DNA from: a bacterium
GTDB taxonomy: Bacteria > Desulfobacterota > Binatia > DP-6
NCBI GenBank assembly: GCA_026129405.1
Contig: JAHCID010000005.1
Coordinates: 186,001 to 250,000 of the forward strand
Direction of reading: 5' to 3'
DNA: 64,000 nt
A program made the translations under genes and the position numbers. Position 1 is the first letter of the stretch; each line of letters starts with the position of its first letter. The notes beneath the pieces are model-generated. The model was given only the letters and a program-made list of their open reading frames with translations, had not been told where the DNA came from and made no database searches. This document shows positions 1-19,329 of the stretch, piece after piece.

Positions 1-181
1 CGTGCGACAGCGAGCATATGGTGATCCTGAGCCAAGTCCTCCGAGGTAACGGGCGGAGGAAAGGTGCAGAGACTAGGGAGTGACGGAAGAATAATCTCCC
101 CACGAGCGCCCGCCACCTACAGGCCGCACGGCCCACGGTGATGAGATAGTCCACCCCCGTCGGAAACGGCGGGACGCGGTG
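1..181 (+). ncRNA. Group I self-splicing intron (5' part cut by window start) inside a tRNA gene
   Basis: The conserved core of a tRNA-type (IC3-like) group I intron is readable. ATCCTGAGCCAAG lies at 24-36. The J6/7-P7 block AAGGTGCAGAGACTA lies at 61-75, and its P7 partner ATAGTCC at 146-152, so GACTA pairs with TAGTC. A P9 hairpin (CCGTCG, GAAA tetraloop, CGGCGG) spans 156-171. The intron would end with the terminal omega-G at 181, directly before the 3' tRNA exon. The core closely resembles what I recall of the cyanobacterial tRNA-Leu and Azoarcus tRNA-Ile introns. P1 and P2 and the guide sequence lie outside the window. No homing endonuclease is present in the visible part. Confidence 0.87.
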
Positions 182-219
182 TAACCGATCGGTCGCTGGT
201 TCGAGTCCGGCCCGGGGAG
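182..219 (+). tRNA. 3' exon of an intron-split tRNA, probably tRNA-Asn(GUU)
   Basis: Reading on from the intron: U36, A37, A38, the 3' anticodon-stem strand CCGAT (185-189), variable loop CGGTC, T arm GCTGG-TTCGAGT-CCGGC (195-211), 3' acceptor strand CCGGGGA (212-218) and discriminator G73 (219). CCA is not encoded. The implied U1-A72 pair, G73, short variable loop and U36 fit tRNA-Asn. If the 5' splice site follows a U, as in group I introns, the anticodon is NUU, which again gives Asn(GUU) rather than Ile or Arg. The 5' exon is outside the window, so the identity is an inference. Confidence 0.75.
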
Positions 220-227
220 CGTCGGAG

Positions 228-261
228 GGGCCGCCAGAGCAATCTGGCGGCCCTTTTCTTT
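228..261 (+). terminator. Strong intrinsic terminator after the tRNA
   Basis: A perfect 11-bp stem (228-238 with 243-253), closed by a GCAA loop and followed by the T-rich tract CTTTTCTTTCT, lies 8 bases after the tRNA 3' end. It should end the tRNA/intron transcript and isolate it from the chemotaxis operon. Confidence 0.9.
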
Positions 262-676
262 CTCTGCCGGCGTTGCGGCGGTGTCGGCGCGGTACGGAAA
301 TGCCCCGCGCACCCTCTCGGGGCTTCGCCGTTCGGGCCGCCGTGTCAGGCGCCATGCGCAGCCGGGCCGGCGTCGGCGGTGCGGTCGCTTTCCGCCCATC
401 GGCACGCAGCGCACGCGCCCACGACGGCTCCGCGGCGGCAGATGCTGCCGACCGCACGGCTCCCTATCTAGTCGTAGCTATGGCATGGCGCCGATAAATT
501 GACGCCGTGTGTGTCTCCTCGCGCCGAAAGACTCGAGGCAGATCGGGAGCTTGCCGCGGGTCCCACGCCGGCACGGGGGTTGCTGAGCGCGGGTGCGAGC
601 GCTCGGGCACCACGCATGGCGGCCCGGACGCACGCACGACGGCGCGGGCAGTCACCGCGCAGAGGACGACCCGAGC
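262..676. other. Intergenic region upstream of the chemotaxis operon
   Basis: About 415 bases without a convincing gene. The short open frames here have no family resemblance and arise from GC richness. The operon promoter must lie in this interval. The only motif I can point to is the GCCGATAA octamer at 490-497. Confidence 0.6.
490..497 (+). promoter_or_regulatory. Possible sigma-28 (FliA)-type -10 element GCCGATAA
   Basis: The octamer is an exact match to the -10 consensus of the motility sigma factor and sits about 180 bases before cheX, at the head of the only che operon here. The matching TAAA-type -35 at the usual spacing is poor, so this may be chance. No flagellar genes are in the window. 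Confidence 0.25.

Positions 677-17914: not shown

Positions 17915-19329
<1,415 letters not shown>

Follow-up and report, generated by a model that had tools for sequence, protein, structure and literature searches.

We found that the tRNA-Asn(GUU) gene at the start of the analysed DNA is interrupted by a group I intron. Judged from sequence, this is almost certainly a ribozyme that separates U35 from U36 in the sole tRNA-Asn(GUU) gene detected in the genome and is spliced out to give a normal tRNA-Asn. It would be part of a wide lineage specialized for this site, in which some members have an HNH endonuclease, probably for homing, and the copy described here would be kept by vertical descent.

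Position and detection of the intron

The window is the 64,000-nt stretch of DNA analysed here; its position 1 is C5:186001 on the contig, 63 nt into the intron. The whole intron is 244 nt long (C5:185938-186181) and runs from 63 nt upstream of the window to window position 181. When the whole genome was searched with the Rfam group I intron model (RF00028), a full-model match was obtained at G000:C5:185928-186173, with a score of 83 bits (cut-off, 50) and E=2.7e-21, and there was no second match anywhere in the host genome. The scan of the window only, at the gathering cut-off, did not detect a group I intron, most likely because the 5' part of the intron is absent from the window. The upstream sequence contains a 35-nt 5' exon, TCCCCGGTAGCTCAGTTGGTAGAGCAATCGGCTGT, which ends in U35 and is followed by the start of the intron, GAACGAATCGCAGCCTC... 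The preliminary description, made from the window, had recognized an intron core with a GAAA-capped P9 and omega-G at position 181, and had proposed upstream extension and the Rfam group I model as checks. All of these landmarks are present, the checks returned the missing 5' part and a significant match, and the observation of a group I intron in a tRNA-Asn(GUU) gene is confirmed. The features identified in the window, all on the plus strand, are as follows.

1-181, plus strand: group I intron, the 3' 181 of 244 nt (RF00028; splice sites from the spliced tRNA and P1)
26-31, plus strand: 3' strand of P4, CCUGAG (covarying helix)
38-59, plus strand: P6/P6a hairpin, CCUCCG (38-43) with CGGAGG (54-59) (covarying helix)
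61-75, plus strand: core landmark AAGGTGCAGAGACTA (sequence reading)
71-75, plus strand: 5' strand of P7, the guanosine-binding helix, GACUA, pairing with 147-151 (invariant, 100% paired in 35 relatives)
108-113, plus strand: 3' strand of P3, GCCCGC; its 5' strand, GCGGGU, is upstream of the window (100% paired, three pairs with double changes)
114-140, plus strand: P8 hairpin, CACC (114-117) with GGUG (137-140) (35-intron alignment)
146-152, plus strand: core landmark ATAGTCC (sequence reading)
147-151, plus strand: 3' strand of P7, UAGUC (35-intron alignment)
156-173, plus strand: P9 hairpin, CCCGUCG-GAAA-CGGCGGG, with a GNRA loop (seven pairs, all with double changes)
181, plus strand: omega-G, preceding U36 (sequence reading)
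182-219, plus strand: 3' exon of tRNA-Asn(GUU), with U36, A37, A38, the anticodon stem, variable loop, T arm and acceptor strand to A72, and discriminator G73 (ARAGORN on the spliced sequence; sequence reading)
226-262, plus strand: probable intrinsic terminator of the tRNA transcript, GGGGCCGCCAG..CTGGCGGCCC then TTTTCTTTC (read directly from the sequence)

Elsewhere in the window, positions 677-1126 encode a CheX-like protein (NF041094, E=1.2e-09, under the cut-off), followed by an apparent CheY-type response regulator. ARAGORN also called a 96-nt tRNA-Arg(GCG) at 19188-19283, which is unsupported by Rfam and is probably a false call.

Host tRNA and splice site

With the intron removed, ARAGORN read the spliced sequence as a complete tRNA-Asn(GUU) of 74 nt, in which the insertion falls between anticodon positions 35 and 36. 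The P1 helix, GGCUGU/GCAGCC, has six pairs, with a U·G at the 5' splice site. The host had previously been inferred from the 3' exon, with the insertion placed at 35/36; a P1 with U·G at the splice site was expected to support this reading, and a different anticodon in the upstream sequence to speak against it. The upstream sequence, the spliced tRNA and omega-G uphold both the host and the site: P1 was found upstream, and the anticodon is GUU.

At default settings, ARAGORN called no tRNA at the intron-bearing locus. When introns were allowed, it gave Thr(UGU) with the intron shifted to 33/34, a choice that follows from the initial G and the terminal GUG of the intron. A generic splice finder shifted a few GUG-ending introns in the same way, so both programs lend something to a tRNA-Thr(UGU) host with its intron between positions 33 and 34. 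However, that reading puts a U·A in place of the U·G at the 5' splice site, and among the relatives' introns that do not end in GUG (e.g., ..CUUG before UAA), most have no G where one is required before the shifted 3' exon. The genome already has two Thr(UGU) genes and no Asn gene, and the empty site in sister genomes is CUGUUAA, i.e., Asn. Based on the splice-site pair, the intron ends of the relatives, the tRNA set of the genome and the empty sites, we rejected tRNA-Thr(UGU) as the host; it has practically no chance of being correct, and the host is taken to be tRNA-Asn(GUU).

Ribozyme structure and covariation

The P1–P9 structure was written by hand on the window intron and evaluated over an alignment of 35 introns of 228–275 nt. 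Across its 50 pairs in 10 helices, 95.3% of the cells were paired, 341 cells had double changes and the covariation was 0.517. When the structure was slid by 1–3 columns as a control, these values were at most 45.7%, 70 and 0.113, respectively; taking the structure from one member favours the unslid version for paired cells, but does not explain double changes on such a scale. P2–P9 covary strongly across the 35 introns, P3 and P7 are 100% paired, and the U·G at the 5' splice site occurs in all 35 aligned relatives. P1 and P7 are nearly invariant among the Asn introns and, because P1 barely varies there, its support lies in its presence and in the comparison across hosts, not in covariation within the set. 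The guide (IGS) is GCAGC[C/T/G] in most relatives and tracks the host exon: CUGU/GCAG for Asn, CUCU/GGAG for Lys(CUU), CUUU/GAAG for Lys(UUU) and ACUU/GAGU for Leu.

The conserved core with P3–P9 and the P3/P7 pseudoknot, the U·G-containing P1 and omega-G are the features of a group I intron, and an archaeal-type (BHB) tRNA intron is unlikely because this core is complete. The intron has GNRA loops in P2 and P9 and is akin in trees to the Leu, Ile and Arg introns, resembling subgroup IC3, a likeness read from these traits rather than from a subgroup-specific model.

tRNA-Asn genes in the genome and class

The host genome has 44 other tRNA genes, none of which reads Asn codons, and a direct pattern search of the genome found no intact tRNA-Asn. 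The preliminary description had named an ordinary tRNA-Asn(GUU) elsewhere, together with a missing P1 and 5' exon, as evidence against its reading; the genome has neither that gene nor that gap. tRNA-Ile(GAU) and tRNA-Ala(UGC) are also missing from the assembly (15 contigs); it therefore falls short of full completeness and may, in principle, omit a second, intact tRNA-Asn. A class-wide test provides stronger support for a sole gene than the absence in a single genome: intact tRNA-Asn is absent in 18 of 18 Asn-intron genomes and present in 110 of 148 genomes (hypergeometric P=5e-13). With no intact tRNA-Asn gene detected, decoding of the AAC and AAU codons should require splicing.

The same gap in the assembly, two tRNAs of the rRNA-operon type, is what could be cited for a tRNA-Asn gene that has degenerated into a pseudogene, with an inactive intron and its work done by an intact tRNA-Asn elsewhere, because one gene could be missing in the same way. 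Against this, the exons are complete, and the U·G P1, P3–P9 and omega-G are intact; no intact tRNA-Asn occurs in any of the 18 intron-bearing genomes of the class, and sister genomes have this locus intact and with a tRNA gene. We consider a pseudogene very improbable and retain the interpretation of a working gene that is spliced.

Distribution among bacteria and the empty site

In the family of the window's genome, the intron occurs in five of seven genomes, and the two with no match are only 80–82% complete. The pattern scan of named genomes gave at least 118 stretches. Many plain tRNA-Thr(UGU) genes were caught as well, as their loop, CUUGUAA, matches the pattern; demanding both a 5' exon and an intron eliminated them, and L081 and L089 were discarded manually. 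Of the stretches, at least 62 are tRNA-Asn genes interrupted at 35/36. The hosts of the split tRNA-Asn genes are Cyanobacteria, Omnitrophota, Elusimicrobia, Nitrospira, Patescibacteria groups, Bacteroidetes, Acidobacteriota, Aminicenantes, Rokubacteria, a deltaproteobacterium, Gemmatales and Pacearchaeota. Strains of Microcoleus and Tychonema are among the relatives with the intron. When the family, class and phylum of the window's genome are included, at least 81 tRNA-Asn introns at 35/36 are found, in bacteria (at least 10 groups) and Pacearchaeota. RF00028 matched significantly in 30 of the 30 named genomes tested, and the same pipeline recovered, as positive controls, Leu(UAA) split after 34, Arg(CCU) split after 36 and Ile/fMet(CAU).

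A further host is an alphaproteobacterial tRNA-Lys(CUU) (L116 / L244), in which a group I intron occupies 35/36. Group I introns also occur in tRNA-Ile(CAU) and tRNA-Leu(UAA) in the same class as the window (L059, L070, L063-L068). In a record titled as a Klebsiella pneumoniae MAG (L156), the intron coordinates are those of G017:C88 from the window's class, and the label is probably wrong.

The empty site was observed in relatives. In family f2 of the same class, the recR-tRNA-Asn locus is common to genomes with and without the intron, and the two exon segments on either side of the intron in L056 (284-322, 588-623) adjoin each other in L195 (1467-1505, 1506-1541). recR (TIGR00615, E=2e-78) is likewise upstream of tRNA-Asn in the window's genome and in L032-L035.

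Archaea and viral contigs

In the class of the Pacearchaeota genome, RF00028 matched in 26 of 234 genomes. The resolved archaeal matches are in tRNA-Asn (L208, L250, L251, L253, L255) or LSU rRNA, and a further tRNA-Asn intron (L211) comes from a second Pacearchaeota genome. Archaeal genes are present on intron contigs, namely an IF2B/IF5-domain protein (L074) and topoisomerase VI subunit A (L250). On the latter contig, a LAGLIDADG-type protein (PF14528, 5.6e-10) is encoded at 1795-2523, just downstream of the tRNA.

Among contigs assigned as viral by the database (L276-L319), both exons of an intron-split tRNA gene were found in 42 of the 44 pattern matches: 30 Asn, 8 Lys(UUU) and 3 Lys(CUU), all at 35/36, and one uncertain case. 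Several of these introns were confirmed by RF00028, and some lie beside tRNA arrays; some of the contigs are 200–540 kb long with tRNA arrays, and the guide follows the host tRNA. When plasmid and phage records were compared with the window intron, nothing beyond short matches in the 5' exon region was obtained.

Endonuclease ORFs and descent of the intron

Introns of ∼0.5–0.7 kb from several phyla contain, ahead of the ribozyme core, an ORF of ∼110 aa with the motif CxxC...HH...CxNCHxxxH. This ORF of the longer Asn introns matched the phrog_2255 HNH endonuclease in PHROGs (E 4e-28 and 2e-32). The Pfam HNH match to the same ORF was below the cut-off, a comparison with NCBIfam gave no meaningful match, and a search of solved structures gave nothing significant. 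Based on these ORFs, the HNH endonuclease probably drives homing in some of the relatives. The window intron, at 244 nt, contains no endonuclease ORF.

In the trees, which were built from short, rough alignments (198–228 columns) and have several weak deep nodes, the window's family (f1) joins f17 of its class with a support of 1.0, and f2 and f16 of the same class join the Nitrospira and Rokubacteria introns. More than one acquisition of the intron in the class is suggested, because f1 with f17 and f2/f16 group with different phyla. These separately placed lineages (at least two in the class) and the HNH ORFs ahead of the ribozyme core in relatives are what an actively homing element, recently acquired in the window's lineage, would leave behind. 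However, the intron and the upstream recR are kept in all five family members with a match, these five group with f17 in a single clade (support, 1.0), and an ORF is absent from the window copy. Recent acquisition by active homing is thus unlikely in this lineage; instead, we infer that the window copy lost its endonuclease and has since probably been maintained by vertical descent.

Proposed splicing mechanism and implications

In vivo, the pre-tRNA-Asn transcribed from the gene downstream of recR, with the intron between U35 and U36, would be spliced as follows. The guide GCAGCC would pair with the exon GGCUGU to form P1, and a guanosine bound by P7 would attack after U35. The freed U35 would then attack after omega-G, so that U35 is joined to U36 and a normal tRNA-Asn results. 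The intron would be one member of a broad lineage dedicated to position 35/36 of tRNA-Asn.

A wider proposal is that tRNA-Asn 35/36, with the matching site of tRNA-Lys, is a major undescribed target, and that the lineage, equipped with an HNH endonuclease, spreads among viruses, bacteria and archaea, switching between Asn and Lys by a one-base change of the guide (GCAG, GGAG, GAAG). We regard the chances of this proposal as evenly balanced.

In many lineages, an essential tRNA for which no backup gene was found would depend on a ribozyme inside its own anticodon. Standard tRNA finders miss such genes, as the output of ARAGORN with and without introns illustrates, and intron-bearing genomes therefore seem to have no tRNA-Asn, or to be incomplete. 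Our results extend the archaeal hosts known for group I introns to tRNA genes, and suggest that viral tRNA genes are intron carriers. The Asn, Lys and Leu guides form a natural series for the retargeting of a ribozyme by its guide sequence.

Comparison with known introns

Bacterial tRNA group I introns are not defined by their hosts, and the list of hosts is open-ended. tRNA-Asn is not among the described bacterial hosts (Leu, Ile, Arg, fMet), and its place outside this list therefore lowers only the claim of an already described site. The preliminary description had called the site unfamiliar. This holds for the open papers searched, none of which was found to name tRNA-Asn as host of a group I intron, but not for public genomes, in which the site is widespread. 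By its anatomy, the intron is a known kind of element, presumably with a known mechanism, at a host site that appears undescribed yet common.

In previous studies, group I introns were reported in some tRNAs of complete CPR genomes, with the tRNAs not named (PMC8172020), and fMet and Ile2 cases were described (PMC8450103). A review stated that the phage introns known at that time were all in protein genes (PMC3984707). The group I introns of 22–49 nt claimed for cyanobacterial tRNAs (PMC5733544) were set aside as too short for a group I core. All 39 archaeal group I introns of another study were in rRNA (PMC6125680); LSU cases were also recovered here, together with archaeal tRNA-Asn hosts.

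The phage and bacterial HNH endonucleases of phrog_2255 are matched in the longer Asn introns and absent from the window intron. The introns of tRNA-Ile(CAU), tRNA-Arg(CCU) and tRNA-fMet are, like the Asn intron, short group I introns of the anticodon loop, but have other hosts and guides, and that of Arg splits its tRNA after position 36. The tRNA-Leu(UAA) introns of cyanobacteria and plastids share with the window intron a small IC3-like ribozyme, a place in the anticodon loop and a P1 formed with the exon of the anticodon arm. They differ in splitting the tRNA after position 34, in their guide (GAGU versus GCAG) and in forming a clade separate from the cellular Asn introns.
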